A stretch of 36,274 nt of DNA from Mariniblastus sp. (GTDB taxonomy: Bacteria > Planctomycetota > Planctomycetia > Pirellulales > Pirellulaceae), in NCBI GenBank assembly GCA_023300235.1, contig JALZWN010000099.1, positions 1-36,274 on the forward strand. The letters run 5' to 3'. Below are positions 29,675-36,274 of the stretch, one piece after another. Within the stretch, counting starts at the first letter, position 1. Each line of letters opens with the position of its first letter. The translations under genes and the position numbers were made by a program. Below the pieces are notes generated by a model. It worked only from the letters and a program-made list of their open reading frames with translations, searched no databases and had not been told where the DNA came from.

Positions 29675-30164
29675 TCTTTTTATCCGTATGCCAGCTAATT
29701 ATTTCTAAAAGCCCTGTCGCAGCCACACACTGCCCTCTTTTCAGCAAAGCGCGCAGCCTACCGGTCGTAGATTAGATTATATAATTTACGTCACTGGCGA
29801 GGGCTTGCACCACTTTTCTTGGGATTCGCATGAAATATAGAAGACGTTGATCTCAATCATCAGCAAAACAAGAATATAACGACAATCGAAGCAATGAATT
29901 GGGAGGGGGACCCCGCTTCTAATCTTGGTTGACGCCTAGGCTGCCGTCTGCAAAATTGTAACATCGCCACTAAATCCAACCAGTTTCGATTAACGAAATA
30001 TTCTGGAACGGAGCGGAAATTGACCTCTGAACCTCAAACCTGCAAAGCCGCTTGAAATTTTGACCATCGTGAAAAGCGAATAACCATTAGGAACCACGTA
30101 AGCAAAAAAGCGATTTGGCGACGAACAGCTGAAGTCTTTACCTTTAACATTGCTAGAGTTTTAC
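29675..30164. other. Divergent upstream region of the DUF1592 and coq4-like genes
   Basis: This long spacer of 490 bases has no supported gene. It contains an A/T-rich stretch with TATAAT at 29779-29784 but without a matching -35 box. A TTGACG at 29929-29934 is followed 17 bases later by AAAATT, a weak candidate promoter for the rightward gene. The length suggests regulatory or untranslated RNA sequence that I cannot identify. Confidence 0.4.
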
Positions 30165-31007
30165 ATGCTCAAAACATTATTAAATTTCCATCGGAACCAC
30201 CACACCCACCCGTCCTACTTGGGATTCCTTAAAGGCAGCATCGGGATGATGCTCAATCCGGAAGGGACTCAATCCGTTTTCGAGATGGAAGATGGATTGC
30301 TCAAATCAAAAAGCACTCAAGAACTGCTTCGCTTTACCTCCAAAGACCCTGCCGTCGACGCAATGATTAAAGAGCGGTACCTGCAGCCAGTTCCAGATAC
30401 GCCAGCCCTTGGCAAGCTTCCCAAAAACACACTTGGCTACAAGTACTTTTATCATCTCGATTCGATGGGCTTCGACCCCGACTACTACCGGAAGATCGAC
30501 GTCCAGAATGACACGGACTACGTGATGATGCGAATTCGTCAGACGCATGACATTTGGCATGTGGTGACGGGGTTCGACACGCACCCTTTGGGAGAGATTG
30601 CAATCAAAGCGGTCGAGCTTTCTCAGACGCATCGCCCGATGGCGGCAGCGATTTGTGCCGGCGGCGTGTTTCGCTATATGCTGAAAGAACCCGATTTGTT
30701 TGGCGATTGCCTTGAGTCGATCGTTGCCGGGTACCACATGGGACTTCAGTCAAGGGCCCTGCTTTCCATGAAATGGGAGGAACTGTGGGATCGCGACCTA
30801 GACGATTTGCGGGAACGACTGGGCGTCGTCCCAGTTGGTCCGCACGGCGGAAAACTGAATGTCGACTTCTCCCCCAGATCATCTGCTGTTGCGGACAAGG
30901 AAGCCAGAGCCGCGATCGCTGAAGCGATGAAGAAATTCACTCAGAACAATCCCGACGCTGTCGGCAATGACGAAGGATTAAACGACCATCACGACATTGG
31001 GCATTAA
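30165..31007 (+). CDS. Coq4-family protein
   Basis: The protein has 280 residues from the ATG at 30165. A TTG five codons upstream is possible. The Coq4 metal motif HDxxHx11E is intact: HDIWHVVTGFDTHPLGE, with His128, Asp129, His132 and Glu144. Flanking blocks LGYKYFYHLDSMGFDPDYY and DTDYVMMRIRQ also match Coq4. Coq4 acts late in ubiquinone synthesis and has been assigned a role in removing the ring C1 carboxylate. Planctomycetes are generally menaquinone users and no ubi gene is nearby, so the substrate here may be another quinone or an aromatic compound. The C-terminus beyond residue 230 is extended and polar. The gene is separated by 308 bases from the radical SAM gene on the same strand. 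Confidence 0.85.
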   Translation: MLKTLLNFHRNHHTHPSYLGFLKGSIGMMLNPEGTQSVFEMEDGLLKSKSTQELLRFTSKDPAVDAMIKERYLQPVPDTPALGKLPKNTLGYKYFYHLDSMGFDPDYYRKIDVQNDTDYVMMRIRQTHDIWHVVTGFDTHPLGEIAIKAVELSQTHRPMAAAICAGGVFRYMLKEPDLFGDCLESIVAGYHMGLQSRALLSMKWEELWDRDLDDLRERLGVVPVGPHGGKLNVDFSPRSSAVADKEARAAIAEAMKKFTQNNPDAVGNDEGLNDHHDIGH

Positions 31008-31315: not shown

Positions 31316-32749
31316 TTGAACAATCCACGAGAACTCGTAAACCTCACGTCGCCAGACCGAAAGTTCTCGCGATCTGATTTTACTTTTGATCGCGTTATTA
31401 AAACAACGACTTCCATTTGCCCCGAATGCCTAGAAAAAATTCCGGCAGAAGTCGTCGAAAAAGATAACCGCGTTTACATGCTTAAAACTTGCGAGCAGCA
31501 CGGAGATTTCTCCGCCTTGTTAGCCTCCGATGTGCGGCACTACTACGTGGCCGATCCAGCGGTCGAACAAGTCGCCTGTTGCTGCGGCCCGAGCCAGCAC
31601 TGTGGCGATCAAGTCGAAAACCACAGTTGCAATATGCTGATCGAGATCACGCAGAGCTGCAATTTGACTTGCCCGACCTGCTACGCAGGATCGTCGCCAC
31701 AAAACAAATCGTTTATGTCGATCGAAAAGTTCGAAGAGACGCTCGACGGTTTGCTCGAAATGGGTAAAGGCGAAGCCGATTTGATTCAGCTCTCCGGCGG
31801 TGAACCAACGATTCATCCCGACTTTTTTGCGATGCTGCAAATGGCAATCGACAAAGGAATCAAACAGGTTTACATCAACACGAACGGGCTGTTGCTGGCA
31901 AAGTCAGATTTCGCCGACAAGATTGCCAAACATGGCCCCAAGGTTTCTATCTACCTACAGTTCGACGGTTTCAAGTCGGGGACTTACGAATTACTGCGTG
32001 GCCGCGATCTAACTCAAACAAAACAAAAGGCGATTGACAATTGCGAACGCCTGGGGATCAACACGGTTCCGATCATGACGTTGACTCGTGGGATTAACCA
32101 CGATGAAGTCGGCGAGTTCATTCGCTTCGCCACGTCGAAGACTCGCAGCATTAGAAAAGTCATGATCCAGCCGGCGATGTACTCCGGCCGCTACGACAAC
32201 CCGATGCTGGACGATCGCTTGACTTTGGCCGACGTTGCGAAATTGATTGTCGAACAAACCGATGGCGTTTTCTGTGAAGATGACTTCACGCCGATTCCAT
32301 GCTCCGACCCGAACTGCTTCAGCATGGCGGCTGCCGTTCGCACCAAAGAGGGACTGACGCCGCTTTCGCGTTACTTGCCAAGATACAACGAGTGGGCCGA
32401 AGACGGAATCAGCCAACTGATCGCTACCGTTTCCGACACGTTTGACAGTGCTGGAAGCCTTGGTGACTTGCTGCAAAAAGTCATGGGCTCATCGGCTGTT
32501 GCCAACATGGAAGAAGAAGCCGTCGATCGCTTGTTGGGCTTGGTCGCTTCGTTGCCATCGGATCTGGGCACGCATGATTCGGAAGACTGGAATTCACTCT
32601 TCGCGATCGGGATCAAGCCATTCATGGACGCCTACACTTACGATCAAGACCGAATCGACAAGTGCTGTGTTCACATCATCTCGGCCGAAGGAAAGCCCAT
32701 TTCTTTCTGCGAATACAACGCCATCAATCGACCAACAGGAAACCTATAA
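31316..32749 (+). CDS. Radical SAM enzyme of the MJ0619/Tes-like family
   Basis: The enzyme has 477 residues from a TTG at 31316. A GAGAG lies just upstream and no usable ATG is near. The radical SAM motif is CNLTCPTC (Cys115, 119, 122), followed by SGGEPT (160-165). An N-terminal rubredoxin-like set, Cys35-x2-Cys38 and Cys59-x2-His62, and further cysteines (CCCG at 88-91, Cys96, Cys105) precede it. The C-terminus carries CCVHIISAEGKPISFCEYN (Cys450, 451, 465). This layout is that of the MJ0619-type family. That family includes archaeal tetraether lipid synthase Tes and was earlier annotated as a pterin methylase. It is not the ArsS type. The stop overlaps the next start in TAATG, so it is coupled to the ArsM-like methyltransferase. 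Substrate unknown. Confidence 0.88.
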   Translation: MNNPRELVNLTSPDRKFSRSDFTFDRVIKTTTSICPECLEKIPAEVVEKDNRVYMLKTCEQHGDFSALLASDVRHYYVADPAVEQVACCCGPSQHCGDQVENHSCNMLIEITQSCNLTCPTCYAGSSPQNKSFMSIEKFEETLDGLLEMGKGEADLIQLSGGEPTIHPDFFAMLQMAIDKGIKQVYINTNGLLLAKSDFADKIAKHGPKVSIYLQFDGFKSGTYELLRGRDLTQTKQKAIDNCERLGINTVPIMTLTRGINHDEVGEFIRFATSKTRSIRKVMIQPAMYSGRYDNPMLDDRLTLADVAKLIVEQTDGVFCEDDFTPIPCSDPNCFSMAAAVRTKEGLTPLSRYLPRYNEWAEDGISQLIATVSDTFDSAGSLGDLLQKVMGSSAVANMEEEAVDRLLGLVASLPSDLGTHDSEDWNSLFAIGIKPFMDAYTYDQDRIDKCCVHIISAEGKPISFCEYNAINRPTGNL

Positions 32750-33627
32750 TGTCTACTAACTCAAACGAAACCGCCGCCTGTTGTGCTCAGTTTTACGAAC
32801 AAGACTGGGTCCAAACGATTTTGGGCGACAGCTTCCACCCCGGTGGAATCGAACTGACCCAGCGTTTGATCAACAGCCTTAATATTTGCAAAGGCGATCG
32901 TGTTCTTGATGTCGCGTGCGGGATGGGGACCACTTCGCTGTTGGTGGATCAGCAATTTGACTCTTCCGTTACAGGGGTCGATTTCAGCGAACATAACGTC
33001 CAACGCGCAACGGAGATTGCGTCAAACAAAGGGGCTGCGGTCGAATTCAAAATCGGCGACGCGATGAACCTGCCAATCGAAGATGCTTCGGTTGACAATT
33101 TAATCTGCGAATGTGCGGTTAGCACGTTCGCTGATCAACCGGCGGCGCTCAACGATTTCTATCGAGTGCTCAAGTCCGGTGGCAGTTTGGCGATTTCCGA
33201 CATGGTTCTCAATGGGAAGCTTTCACCCAAAATGGAAACACTGATCGCACCGTGGACTTGCCTTGCGTCGGCCAAAACAGCGGCCGGTTACCAGCGTTTA
33301 CTACTTGACGCGGGTTTCGTCGTCACCAGTTACTCCGACGAAAGCCAAGCGTTGTTGGACTTGGTGCTGGACCTGAAGAAGAAACTGCTGGTTGCAGGAC
33401 TGGGCAAAACGCTGGCCACCGCCGACGGCGTGCCGGATGTTTTGGCTTCCCTTGATATCGCAGAACTGAAATCGCTCATGGACGAAGCCAAACAGTTGGT
33501 CAACGACGGAGTCGTGCAGTACTGCCGCATGACCTTTGCCAAGGATCAACCGCGCACACCTGAGAAACCAAAGCTTACCGTGGTTGCCGGCGGCGAAGTG
33601 GATTGCGGGCCGGGATGTAATTGTTAG
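32749..33627 (+). CDS. ArsM-like class I SAM methyltransferase with Cys-rich tail
   Basis: The enzyme has 292 residues from the ATG at 32749, which overlaps the radical SAM stop by one base. SAM motif I is VLDVACGMGTTS (52-63), then GVDFSEHNVQRA and GDAMNLPIEDASVDNLI. The region LICECAVSTF (Cys120, 122), FYRVLKSGGSLAISDMVL and PWTCLASA (Cys171) is very close to arsenite methyltransferase ArsM. There, two of the conserved arsenic-binding cysteines sit about 50 residues apart, as do Cys122 and Cys171 here. A vicinal pair at Cys11-12 could act as the N-terminal ligand. The protein ends in VDCGPGCNC. An activity on As, Se or another thiophilic substrate is a hypothesis. A UbiE-like function on a small molecule is the alternative. 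Confidence 0.85.
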   Translation: MSTNSNETAACCAQFYEQDWVQTILGDSFHPGGIELTQRLINSLNICKGDRVLDVACGMGTTSLLVDQQFDSSVTGVDFSEHNVQRATEIASNKGAAVEFKIGDAMNLPIEDASVDNLICECAVSTFADQPAALNDFYRVLKSGGSLAISDMVLNGKLSPKMETLIAPWTCLASAKTAAGYQRLLLDAGFVVTSYSDESQALLDLVLDLKKKLLVAGLGKTLATADGVPDVLASLDIAELKSLMDEAKQLVNDGVVQYCRMTFAKDQPRTPEKPKLTVVAGGEVDCGPGCNC

Positions 33628-33694
33628 TCAATGGAATGTTCGTAGCACCGCCTTCAAGCGGAATTCAGCCCAAAGCCCGACACTGCTAAATTCA

Positions 33695-33763
33695 GTGAGC
33701 GGCAGGGCGTTAGCCGCCGGTACGTCGAGCCAACGAACCGGCCGCCAGCGCCAGGCCGCTCAC
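33695..33763. repeat. Imperfect inverted repeat of a GTGAGCGGC-type dispersed element
   Basis: GTGAGCGGCAGGGCGTTAGC and following bases (33695-33721) pair imperfectly with 33737-33763, which ends GCCAGGCCGCTCAC. The arms are 27 nt with a 15-base loop. The core looks like a repeat common in planctomycete genomes (from memory). It sits between the methyltransferase and the cNMP/AlbA_2 gene and could act as an RNA stem or attenuator. Confidence 0.78.
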
Positions 33764-33808
33764 AACTTCAGAATTTTGAGTATCGCTTGAGCGTATTGGC
33801 TAAAGCGG

Positions 33809-34747
33809 ATGCAACAAACTTTGCAACAGATAATTGTCATGAATCAGTTTCCCCCGATGTCAGCAAAGGAGATGCTTGCTGCGGTTGCAACGCACGAGGT
33901 ATTCAACGGCCTTGATAGCGCTGCATCAGAAAAACTTGAAGAGGCTTTGTCCTATCAAGTTGTCGCGAAGAACAGTCAGATATTCGAGGTAGGCGACCAG
34001 CCCAATAAGATCTTTTACTTATTGGAGGGGGCGTTAACGCTAAAATTCCCCGACAACTCTTCGATTCAACTGCAAACCGGAGAGCTGATCGGGGAAATTG
34101 GTGTACTCAATGGTGATTTTCGACTGGGGACTTTGACCGCCAATGAAGACAGCGCAGTGATTGCCATCGGTACTACGTGTCTGTTTGACCCAAGTTGCGT
34201 ACCACCAGAAACGAGTCTTGCGATCGTTCGCAGATTAAGCAAACGGGTGACCGACTATTTAAGATCCGTCCAACAGACCTCGACGCAAGATTTGATCTCG
34301 CAGGGAGAAGGGGAATACGTCGAATTCAAATCGACGCTTCGATGGAATCTCAAAGCGGAGAAAAAAGACAAAAACATTACGCACGCCATCACCAAAACCA
34401 TTGCTGCATTCCTCAACACCGATGGTGGGACCTTACTAGTGGGAGTCAGCGACGATGGGCAAGTGCTGGGGCTTGAGGCCGATCGCTTCGAGAACGACGA
34501 CAAAATGCTGTTGTTTCTGACTGACTCGATTAAAACGCAATTGGGAACGCTTCATTTAGAGAACATTGATTTCCATACTGAAAACATCGCCGGCAGCGAA
34601 GTGTTGCGAATCGACGTCCGTGCCGGTCGCACCCCGTGCTATTTAGCCAAAGAGAAACTGGACCATTTTTATATCAGAACCGGTCCATCCACGACGGACT
34701 TGCGACTATCAAAACTGTTTGACTACTTGAGCAAACGATTTGAGTAG
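33809..34747 (+). CDS. cNMP-binding domain fused to AlbA_2 (Schlafen-type) domain
   Basis: The protein has 312 residues from the ATG at 33809. Alternative starts at 33839 and 33857 are plausible and none has a clear ribosome site. Residues about 25-155 are a cyclic-nucleotide-binding-like beta roll (GDQPNKIFYLLEGALTLKF, then GELIGEIGVLNGDFRLGTLT, with the phosphate-binding-cassette Glu and Arg). Residues about 170-310 are AlbA_2: GEYVEFKSTLRWN, AFLNTDGGTLLVGVSDDG and HFYIRTGPSTTDL. AlbA_2 domains bind nucleic acid and occur in transcription regulators and Schlafen proteins. The CRP-type HTH is absent, so this is a sensor with a non-classical effector. It follows the radical SAM/methyltransferase pair by about 180 bases and could regulate it or the next gene. 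Confidence 0.85.
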   Translation: MQQTLQQIIVMNQFPPMSAKEMLAAVATHEVFNGLDSAASEKLEEALSYQVVAKNSQIFEVGDQPNKIFYLLEGALTLKFPDNSSIQLQTGELIGEIGVLNGDFRLGTLTANEDSAVIAIGTTCLFDPSCVPPETSLAIVRRLSKRVTDYLRSVQQTSTQDLISQGEGEYVEFKSTLRWNLKAEKKDKNITHAITKTIAAFLNTDGGTLLVGVSDDGQVLGLEADRFENDDKMLLFLTDSIKTQLGTLHLENIDFHTENIAGSEVLRIDVRAGRTPCYLAKEKLDHFYIRTGPSTTDLRLSKLFDYLSKRFE

Positions 34748-34847
34748 CCCAAGTGCCCCTCGACAATCCACTCCAAAATCCGAAACCAATTCCATTCCCC
34801 TTGAATTAATCATTCGCAAATAGGCACCCACAAACGAGAGAAACCAA

Positions 34848-36274
34848 ATGACTACCAACGAACAAGACCCCAACGTCCTTCCTCCCGGCGACGTACACAA
34901 TCAAAAGCTTCGCGACAACGTGCATCCACAAAACTGGCCGACCCAACCGATCGACGGCGTCTACGACATGATCGCGATCGGAGCGGGAACGGCCGGCCTC
35001 GTTTCGTCTGGCGGTGCGGCGATGCTGGGTGCCAAATCCGGGCTGATCGAACGGCACATGATGGGTGGCGACTGTTTGGTCACCGGATGCGTTCCCTCGA
35101 AAACGCTGATCAAATCAGCTCACGTTGCGCATCAGGCAAGAAAGGCTCAAGAGTTTGGCGTCAACGTGGGAGAGGTTAAAGTCGACTTCACGAAAGTCAT
35201 GGAACGCCTGCGCCGCGTCCGCGCCGACATGGCTCACCACGATGGTGCGAAAAAACTAGATGACATGGGCGTTGATGTGCTGTTCGGGAACGCCAAGTTC
35301 ACCGGCCCTAACACGCTGGACTTGGACGGGAAAGAGATCAAGTTCCGTCGAGCGATGATTTGCGCGGGAGGGCGGCCGTTCGTTCCCGATATTCCCGGTC
35401 TTCGTGACAATTGTTTGACCAGTGAATCGTTCTTCGAACTGACTGAACTTCCCGAACACTTCATGGTCATCGGCGGCGGCCCGATCGGTTGCGAACTGGC
35501 TCATTCGATGCGACGGATGGGCTCGGAGGTCACCATCCTCCAACGCGGGCAGAAGATCATGGACAAGGATGATCCGGATGCGGGGGCCATCATCTTGGAC
35601 GTATTCAAAGAAGAAGGCATCGACGTACGCTTCGGTTCCGAGCTTCAAAAAGTCGAACCACGCGACGGTCGACTGCACTGCACGATCAAGCACGGCGACC
35701 ACGAACATGAATTGATCGTTGACAAAATCATGGTGGCCACCGGTCGAGTGCCGAATGTCGAAAGCCTGAATCTAGAGGCGGCCGGCGTCGAGTATCATCG
35801 GCGTGGAATCACCGTCGACAAGCATCACCGGACATCCAACAAACGCATTTTCGCGGCAGGCGATATTTGCTCTCCTTTTCAATTTACCCACGCCGCATAC
35901 GCCCAAGCCGAATACGCAACGCTCAACGCATTGATGCCGTGGCCCTATCGTTTGAACGCCAAAGATCGCGTGATGAGCTGGGTGACTTACACCGATCCAG
36001 AAGTAGCACATGCCGGCCCCGCGTATTCGGAAATCGAGAAACAAAAAGCGAATCTCGACACTTACGAACTGCCCATGAAAGACAACGATCGTGCTCAAAC
36101 GGAAAGCGAGCATCGCGGGTTCTGTCGGATCCACTGCAAAAAGGGAACGGACAAGATCGTGGCGGCTACGATCGTTGGTGAAAACGCTGGCGAGATGATT
36201 GCAGAGATGAGCCTTGCAATCACCCAAGGCATGAAATTGCGACACATTCAGGAATCGGTACACGCTTACCCAAC
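34848..36274 (+). CDS. Mercuric-reductase-like FAD/NAD(P) disulfide oxidoreductase (C-terminus off right edge)
   Basis: The frame is open for 475 codons from the ATG at 34848 (GAGAG upstream) to the window end, with no stop. FAD site: MIAIGAGTAGLVSSGG (41-56). Redox-active disulfide: GGDCLVTGCVPSKTLIKSA (Cys76, Cys81, CxxxxC intact). NAD(P) site: VIGGGPIGCELA. Second FAD motif: IFAAGDI. At the very end HAYPT replaces the HxHPT motif of glutathione reductase, so the usual catalytic His is Tyr, as in many MerA-like proteins. There is no N-terminal NmerA metal-binding domain, but about 35 extra residues (up to PTQPIDGVYD) precede the FAD site. A C-terminal metal-binding CC of true MerA cannot be checked. 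It starts 100 bases after the cNMP/AlbA_2 gene. Confidence 0.9.
   Translation, partial: MTTNEQDPNVLPPGDVHNQKLRDNVHPQNWPTQPIDGVYDMIAIGAGTAGLVSSGGAAMLGAKSGLIERHMMGGDCLVTGCVPSKTLIKSAHVAHQARKAQEFGVNVGEVKVDFTKVMERLRRVRADMAHHDGAKKLDDMGVDVLFGNAKFTGPNTLDLDGKEIKFRRAMICAGGRPFVPDIPGLRDNCLTSESFFELTELPEHFMVIGGGPIGCELAHSMRRMGSEVTILQRGQKIMDKDDPDAGAIILDVFKEEGIDVRFGSELQKVEPRDGRLHCTIKHGDHEHELIVDKIMVATGRVPNVESLNLEAAGVEYHRRGITVDKHHRTSNKRIFAAGDICSPFQFTHAAYAQAEYATLNALMPWPYRLNAKDRVMSWVTYTDPEVAHAGPAYSEIEKQKANLDTYELPMKDNDRAQTESEHRGFCRIHCKKGTDKIVAATIVGENAGEMIAEMSLAITQGMKLRHIQESVHAYP

Follow-up and report, generated by a model that had tools for sequence, protein, structure and literature searches.

A conserved cassette of a Tes-family radical SAM enzyme and an ArsM-like methyltransferase in Mariniblastus sp.: a candidate organoarsenical biosynthesis pathway

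Tes (GDGT-MAS, MJ0619) is a radical S-adenosylmethionine (SAM) enzyme from a family that acts on lipid tails. It carries a rubredoxin-type site (C9X2C12X20C33X2H36), the [Fe4S4]N cluster on C73, C77, C80 and a His residue, the radical SAM (RS) cluster, and a C-terminal cluster with a labile Met439, where a substrate carbon is bound in an intermediate (PMC9433317). In the same paper, Met439 and Tyr459 are reported to be fully conserved across 1000 archaeal homologues, the M439A variant keeps activity, and the reactions of the bacterial homologues are left open; these have been proposed for branched glycerol dialkyl glycerol tetraethers (brGDGT) (PMC8941075). The radical SAM enzymes named for C–As bond formation are ArsS (arsenosugar) and ArsL (arsinothricin) (PMC12159101, PMC8552651), and in the methyltransferase ArsM the cysteines are Cys72, Cys174 and Cys224 in CmArsM numbering (PMC5552862). 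Here we describe a cassette in which a Tes-family radical SAM enzyme is encoded next to an ArsM-like methyltransferase. It lies at the 3' end of a Mariniblastus sp. contig, C99, which was analysed as a whole from base 1 to 36274 ("the window"; genome G000, 4.73 Mb, 311 contigs). With some reserve, the cassette is considered to be probably an undescribed pathway of organoarsenical biosynthesis; no description of it was found in the literature searched, which was mostly open-access, most subscription papers lying outside.

The order of the genes on the + strand is Coq4, radical SAM enzyme, methyltransferase, cNMP/AlbA_2 protein and flavin adenine dinucleotide (FAD) disulfide reductase. An earlier note on this DNA had pointed to the last four genes, to a TAATG overlap between the first two of these, and to Cys11-12, Cys122, Cys171 and the CGPGCNC tail of the methyltransferase; the genes and the overlap were confirmed, and these cysteines and the tail are present in the translation. 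The stop codon TAA of the radical SAM gene occupies positions 32747–32749, and the ATG of the methyltransferase gene begins at 32749. The intergenic gaps are 181 nucleotides from the methyltransferase to the cNMP/AlbA_2 gene and 100 nucleotides from there to the reductase. This means that coupling exists only between the radical SAM and methyltransferase genes.

This pair is linked far beyond the window. A scan of species genomes with two short peptide patterns gave at least 14 loci at 42–68% identity, followed by a drop to 37% or less; since two short patterns were used and the loci are those among the matches listed, the 14 are no census. In a 77-row tree of the radical SAM enzymes, the window protein, that of locus L039 and those of 13 scan loci form a single clade with a support of 100/99, and Tes (7tol) is on a separate branch. 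The tree omits the partial L126, contains L053 and L066 twice, so that its "changes" figure is inflated, and marks L125 as linked to a methyltransferase even though that locus yielded none; L319 and L320 were found later and were assigned to the clade by score. The clade is distributed over Planctomycetota, Verrucomicrobiota, Myxococcota, Pseudomonadota and Gemmatimonadota. The methyltransferase gene adjoins the radical SAM gene in 17 of the 18 clade loci, namely 13 of the 14 listed scan loci, L039, the window, L319 and L320, whereas none of the 66 next-best loci (L127–L192, five of them shorter than 10 kb) has a methyltransferase of the cassette type (13/14 versus 0/66, Fisher p 4e-14). It should be mentioned that the positive loci themselves supplied the sequences for the hidden Markov models (HMMs) of the methyltransferase and of DUF547; before these models, the window protein alone had already revealed the adjacency. 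A later search of 329 genomes from the phylum of G305 gave L319 as a new close member (746 bits) and L320 (683 bits), followed by matches of at most 350 bits. In L319, which was found after the hypothesis had been formed, the radical SAM, methyltransferase and reductase genes are consecutive; the more distant L321, retrieved alongside it, lacks the methyltransferase. The linkage is thus more than chance, and the pair, frequently with the reductase, is a rare unit, conserved and dispersed across five phyla.

Among 294 planctomycete genomes, 40, including that of the window, have a relative of the radical SAM enzyme at E ≤ 1e-40, and the sole near one is in G052 (48%). The same type of methyltransferase is found in two of the 39 remaining planctomycete loci with Tes-like enzymes: in L053 (3698–6896) and L066 (689–3854), a second branch of Tes-like radical SAM enzymes is paired with it, with DUF547 between them. 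The radical SAM frame of L066 is interrupted by one stop. A further one of these loci, L074, encodes a methyltransferase of a different kind (68 bits, compared with 320–398 for the cassette type; 24% identity by BLAST) and was counted accordingly. A plasmid search for the named relatives returned 10 records at 27–33% identity and no clade member. L124 and L320, a near-copy of it, belong to the same genome, G305; their cassettes, about 90% identical in one assembly, might reflect duplication or strain mixture. L073, L071 and L065 are planctomycete loci that hold two or three radical SAM genes of the Tes family, in tandem or close together, and lack the methyltransferase. The next-best loci L127–L192 represent a Tes-like family of about 36% identity, mostly from Bacteroidota.

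Tes (7tol) is the sole close PDB sequence for the radical SAM enzyme (E 7.8e-67; the runner-up is at 1e-8). The AlphaFold2 model (mean predicted local distance difference test score, pLDDT, of 76) fits Tes along the full length, with a template modelling (TM) score of 0.73 of the query; the other rows listed are at 0.38 or below. The domain order, the CX2C..CX2H site, the RS motif and the C-terminal CC...FC cysteines are shared. In the window protein, the corresponding residues are C35-C38-C59-H62 (rubredoxin-type), C115xxxC119xxC122 (RS), C329/C334, Lys434, C450/C451 and C465. In the alignment of 15 clade enzymes, the rubredoxin-type CX2C-X20-CX2H site is retained (C35, C38 and C59 in 15/15, H62 in 14/15), as are the RS motif and the C-terminal cysteines (C450 in 14/15, C451 and C465 in 15/15).

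Nevertheless, the cassette enzyme, with its Tes-like frame, is not Tes, because the [Fe4S4]N motif and two residues conserved in Tes are replaced or lost. The motif CX3CX2CX2H is present in none of the 15 cassette rows; among the other 60 rows, 54 have it, and Tes is one of these. The positions of Met439 and Tyr459 were mapped onto the window protein through the PDB sequence alignment with Tes; the former is Lys434 and the latter Ile or Val454 in all 15 clade enzymes. In addition, the cassette enzyme is on another tree branch and comes paired with a methyltransferase, and its score on the Tes model NF045702 is 250.6 against a cut-off of 450. The score on the ArsS model TIGR04167 is 37.6 against 300; the assignment in the earlier note to the Tes/MJ0619 type, and not to the ArsS type, was therefore borne out. 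The best NCBIfam model is TrsS (NF045646; 301.2 against 490), and five clade relatives score 254.2–277.5 on it. TrsS is listed as a selenoprotein family (PMC13188914). The radical SAM enzymes of L039, L123, L124 and L125 are without the N-terminal auxiliary cluster stretch.

For the methyltransferase, the best NCBIfam model is DVU_1556 (NF045667), on which the window protein scores 138.1 and four clade relatives and L053 score 140.5–151.6, against a cut-off of 155; in 294 planctomycete genomes no protein exceeds this cut-off. As far as the HMM scores allow a comparison, TrsS and DVU_1556 are thus the closest models of the pair, whereas the window and the scanned relatives are below both cut-offs. 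In an alignment of 16 cassette-type enzymes (14 from the clade, with L053 and L066) and eight ArsM above the NF008823 cut-off (L114, L280 and L108 are omitted here and from the tree), the ArsM-like Cys122/Cys171 pair that had been described from the window occurs throughout both sets. Cys-rich tails (CGPGCNC, CCDPSGGCC and similar) are found in five of the 16, including the window protein, and a Cys-rich insert is present in L113, L126 and L114. Two conserved cysteines are reportedly sufficient in an ArsM, going by the title of Huang 2018. An ArsM with one cysteine has also been reported (PMC8649762).

The earlier note had taken missing linkage in related genomes, or a firm grouping with UbiE-like quinone enzymes, as evidence against its proposal. 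Neither was observed: the linkage is conserved, and in the tree, the cassette proteins are outside the ArsM clade and distant from MenG, although the MenG end is a weak long branch and the support of the exact cassette split is just 52/46. The window protein scores 66.6 on the MenG/UbiE model TIGR01934 (cut-off 158.35). The MenG of the same genome that exceeds the cut-off (C195, 258 bits) is without a pair of the Cys122/Cys171 type (L292). In L039, L123, L124 and L320, a CobW/COG0523-type GTPase shares a single open frame with the methyltransferase (the Pfam call of the GTPase was made for L039 and L125 only), and its CxCC motif was observed in L039 and L320.

The reductase is present in eight of the 18 clade loci (window, L115, L116, L120, L123, L124, L319 and L320) and immediately follows the methyltransferase in six (L116, L120, L123, L124, L319 and L320). 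Because some clade loci end early, 43 bases past the methyltransferase in L117 and 1344 bases past it in L126, this count is a lower bound. The window gene itself is truncated by the contig end, with 2 bases remaining 3' of it (L305, excised with 1500-base flanks). Its best model is NF004991 (PRK06370), with a score of 579.4 against 620 for the gene lacking its 3' end; L115, L116, L120 and L124 score 819.7, 619.6, 564.7 and 448.1. The enzyme shares the fold family and the CxxxxC motif with MerA. However, the score on MerA TIGR02053 is 356.6 for the cut window gene and 367 and 383.7 for the full-length proteins of L116 and L120, against a cut-off of 454.45. A C-terminal vicinal Cys pair is a feature of MerA; it is absent in all six relatives' copies examined (L115, L116, L120, L123, L124 and L319), and the window copy is truncated at that point. 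"Mer-like", in the sense of a mercury reductase, is therefore not supported for this enzyme. Contig C134 of the same genome encodes a second reductase, together with VTT. Taken together, the linkage of four genes in the earlier note is retained for the radical SAM enzyme and the methyltransferase, less often for the reductase, and not for the cNMP/AlbA_2 gene, which is in no recurring gene family of the clade loci.

The link with arsenic is seen in the neighbourhoods. In L115 (Gemmataceae), a VTT-DUF547 fusion accompanies the radical SAM and methyltransferase genes; approximately 2–4 kb further on, the opposite strand carries the arsenosugar glycosyltransferase TIGR04282 (160 bits against 134) and ArsS (452 against 300), all within 21 kb. 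An ArsM-like gene follows ArsS, and the reductase is approximately 8 kb upstream. In L227, an ArsS locus of another planctomycete, the reductase, VTT, DUF547, an ArsM-like gene, ArsS and TIGR04282/04283 are together; this reductase scores 783 on NF004991 (cut-off 620) and is 43% identical to that of the window. DUF547 is found in six of 15 cassette-clade loci and in both L053 and L066 (8/17 combined), in five of 20 ArsS loci and in none of 103 other Tes-like loci; the Fisher p values for this distribution are 3e-8 and 7e-5. The 20 ArsS regions had been picked for longer contigs out of 65 genomes with an ArsS match. In the Pirellulaceae loci L113 and L114, the order is DUF547, radical SAM enzyme, methyltransferase and MMPL (Pfam assigned MMPL in L113 and in the partial L126, and the proteins of L113 and L114 share 49% identity). 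The genome of the window itself has DUF547, MMPL and an ArsM-like gene consecutively on the same strand of contig C39 (9427–14514; L309, C39:1-20000). The DUF547 and MMPL proteins are 64% and 61% identical to those that flank the pair in L113, and the tree groups the ArsM-like gene (102 bits against 263) with the ArsM-like genes beside the ArsS of relatives. The same genome has ArsS on contig C282 (414.7 against 300). Accessory genes (DUF547, VTT, MMPL and the reductase) are thus common to the cassette and to some arsenosugar or ArsM-like loci. Near the cassette in L115 (5406–7742), and by homology of one gene also in L123 (2838–3815) and L124 (6135–6983), two genes together with one for a small Cys-rich protein presumably resemble a DUF692-type metal-binding peptide (bufferin-like) operon.

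A role in arsenic compounds is suggested because these helper genes recur beside known arsenosugar genes and the methyltransferase seems to be built to grip arsenic. An organo-metalloid pathway had been suggested from the window alone; the cysteines and the links to arsenosugar loci support it as a likely metalloid pathway, and the element is likely to be arsenic rather than another thiophilic element. Beyond the earlier note, the present analysis adds the links to arsenosugar loci and the features that set the radical SAM enzyme apart from Tes. In the proposed mechanism, the methyltransferase would hold As(III) on Cys122 and Cys171, aided by Cys11-12 and the Cys-rich tail, and methylate it, an activity predicted from sequence. 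The reductase and thiols might keep the methyl-arsenical trivalent. The radical SAM enzyme would then generate a carbon radical, and attack of this radical on the trivalent arsenic would form a further C–As bond, much as in ArsS and ArsL, where the radicals are different ones. VTT and MMPL proteins transport lipids. A lipid chain may be the carbon partner; this is a speculative step, suggested by the origin of the radical SAM enzyme in a family that acts on lipid tails and by the MMPL or VTT proteins found with some copies. The Tes-type enzyme would remove a hydrogen from the alkyl chain of a lipid and link that chain to the trivalent methyl-arsenical supplied by the methyltransferase. The cassette would then lead directly to arsenolipids, either fatty acids or hydrocarbons containing arsenic, with MMPL or VTT moving them; this more specific version seems rather doubtful.

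The two known pathways resemble the cassette in part. Like ArsM-ArsS, it combines a radical SAM enzyme with a methyltransferase carrying the two arsenic-binding cysteines, and the reductase, VTT and DUF547 are common to some ArsS loci; the radical SAM enzyme is, however, of another family and the methyltransferase is outside the ArsM clade. ArsM-ArsL likewise consists of a radical SAM enzyme and an ArsM-type methyltransferase for C–As bonds (PMC8552651, PMC12159101), whereas a single cluster is predicted for ArsL, in contrast to the Tes-type auxiliary sites of the cassette enzyme; this comparison is one of descriptions rather than of sequences.

Several observations weigh against an organoarsenical pathway. 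The methyltransferase scores 104.7 on ArsM NF008823 (cut-off 263), and the cysteine of the ArsM motif LGCGNP, which we take to be CmArsM Cys72, is present in none of the 16 cassette-type enzymes and in seven of the eight ArsM. The best PDB folds for its model are AtmM, RebM and phosphoethanolamine methyltransferases, that is, O-/N- and small-molecule enzymes; ArsM is absent among the best 50 fold rows, and ArsM chains match by PDB sequence only at about 1e-6. The ArsM-like genes near ArsS in L115 and L227 and on C39 are below the ArsM cut-off. With regard to the neighbours, 15 of the 20 ArsS loci are without DUF547, the reductase is in one of these 20 (and in none of the 39 other planctomycete Tes-like loci), and weaker relatives of it, at about half the score or less, occur in three of the 66 Bacteroidota-type next-best loci. 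L125 has the radical SAM gene and a G3E gene, and no methyltransferase was found there. No known ars resistance gene was found among the 18 window proteins scanned with Pfam, the remaining open reading frames being outside the scan. ArsS over the cut-off is present in nine of 18 genomes with the cassette or an L053/L066-type pair (in 9/16 with the clade radical SAM enzyme), which is not significant (p 0.19) against the 65 of 199 planctomycetes with ArsS at E ≤ 1e-60. On these counts, with many genomes incomplete, the cassette neither requires nor excludes ArsS.

Two other explanations were considered. The cassette might act purely on lipids: the Tes-like enzyme would join or alter lipid tails, in membrane-spanning or brGDGT-like lipids, the methyltransferase would act on lipid, and the cysteines would serve otherwise. 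The full-length similarity to Tes, the nearest solved relative, the role in brGDGT proposed for bacterial homologues (PMC8941075), the MMPL and VTT neighbours and the fold of the methyltransferase, closest to small-molecule and phosphoethanolamine methyltransferases, are all consistent with this. However, it leaves the metalloid-type cysteines and the links to ArsS and ArsM-like genes unexplained, and the changes of Met439 and Tyr459 and the loss of the [Fe4S4]N motif in all 15 enzymes point away from Tes chemistry, even if Tes M439A is active; it is considered unlikely. Alternatively, the radical SAM enzyme might be an unrelated substitute for ArsS, adding the 5'-deoxyadenosyl group to dimethylarsinous acid to give ordinary arsenosugar precursors. 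The helper genes common to the cassette and ArsS loci would fit, as would the nine of 18 genomes in which no ArsS exceeds the cut-off, many being incomplete metagenome-assembled genomes (MAGs). The other nine, all with a clade radical SAM enzyme and including the genome of the window, have ArsS as well, and L115 carries both in one locus. Considering also the very low score on TIGR04167, and that an arsenosugar glycosyltransferase was identified by the cassette only in L115 (the neighbours of the other loci were scanned in part), this explanation is a shade less likely still.

A different thiophilic element (Se, Sb, Te or Hg), built into an organo-compound by the same two enzymes, has in its favour that TrsS, a (seleno)protein, is the closest radical SAM model by score, and that Cys-rich tails are capable of binding many soft elements. 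The element-linked neighbours that were identified are arsenosugar or ArsM-like genes, and the window radical SAM frame has no in-frame stop, although no search for a selenocysteine insertion signal was made. Such an element is very unlikely. That unrelated genes merely lie side by side in one MAG is hardly conceivable: the cNMP/AlbA_2 and Coq4 genes, indeed, do not recur with the cassette, but the recurrence of the radical SAM–methyltransferase pair in 17 of 18 loci and five phyla refutes it for these two genes. A quinone pathway of Coq4 and a UbiE-like methyltransferase was rejected, because Coq4 has no match near the cassette in other clade loci and the methyltransferase is not MenG. Pterin methylation was also rejected; the Pfam name HMPTM is historic, and the pterin annotation is not corroborated according to the Tes paper (PMC9433317).

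The features are collected in Table 1. A GC-rich inverted repeat was spotted by eye between the methyltransferase and cNMP/AlbA_2 genes (33700–33790); the core of this repeat, the 14 bases GGGCGTTAGCCGCC, is found a single time in the window.

Table 1. Features of the cassette and adjacent genes in the window
Feature	Position	Strand	Basis or remark
Coq4 family protein	30150-31007	+	Upstream of the radical SAM gene
Tes-family radical SAM enzyme, 477 aa, cassette core	31316-32749	+	Pfam PF23545 (Zn_ribbon_HMPTM) and PF04055 (Radical_SAM)
Codons of the CX3CX2C radical SAM cluster motif	31658-31681	+	Translation; invariant in 15/15 aligned clade enzymes
ArsM-like, DVU_1556-like class I methyltransferase, 292 aa	32749-33627	+	Profile matches, alignment, tree
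Vicinal Cys11-Cys12 of the methyltransferase	32779-32784	+	Alignment: Cys at column 11 in 14/16, at column 12 in 16/16
Cys122 of the methyltransferase, aligned with arsenic-binding CmArsM 174	33112-33114	+	16/16 cassette-type, 8/8 ArsM over cut-off
Cys171 of the methyltransferase, aligned with arsenic-binding CmArsM 224	33259-33261	+	16/16 cassette-type, 8/8 ArsM over cut-off
Cys-rich C-terminal tail CGPGCNC of the methyltransferase	33604-33624	+	Translation
cNMP_binding and SLFN_AlbA_2 protein	33809-34747	+	Pfam; between the parts, not a conserved cassette member
FAD disulfide reductase (Pyr_redox, CxxxxC), NF004991 (PRK06370-type) branch	34848-36272	+	Pfam, NCBIfam; 3' end cut

If the cassette is indeed an organoarsenical pathway, the combination of an ArsM-like methyltransferase with a Tes-family radical SAM enzyme would add further C–As chemistry beyond that of ArsS and ArsL. 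It would also be a concrete candidate for the way in which bacteria join arsenic to carbon chains, and would hint at what one branch of the bacterial relatives of Tes does.

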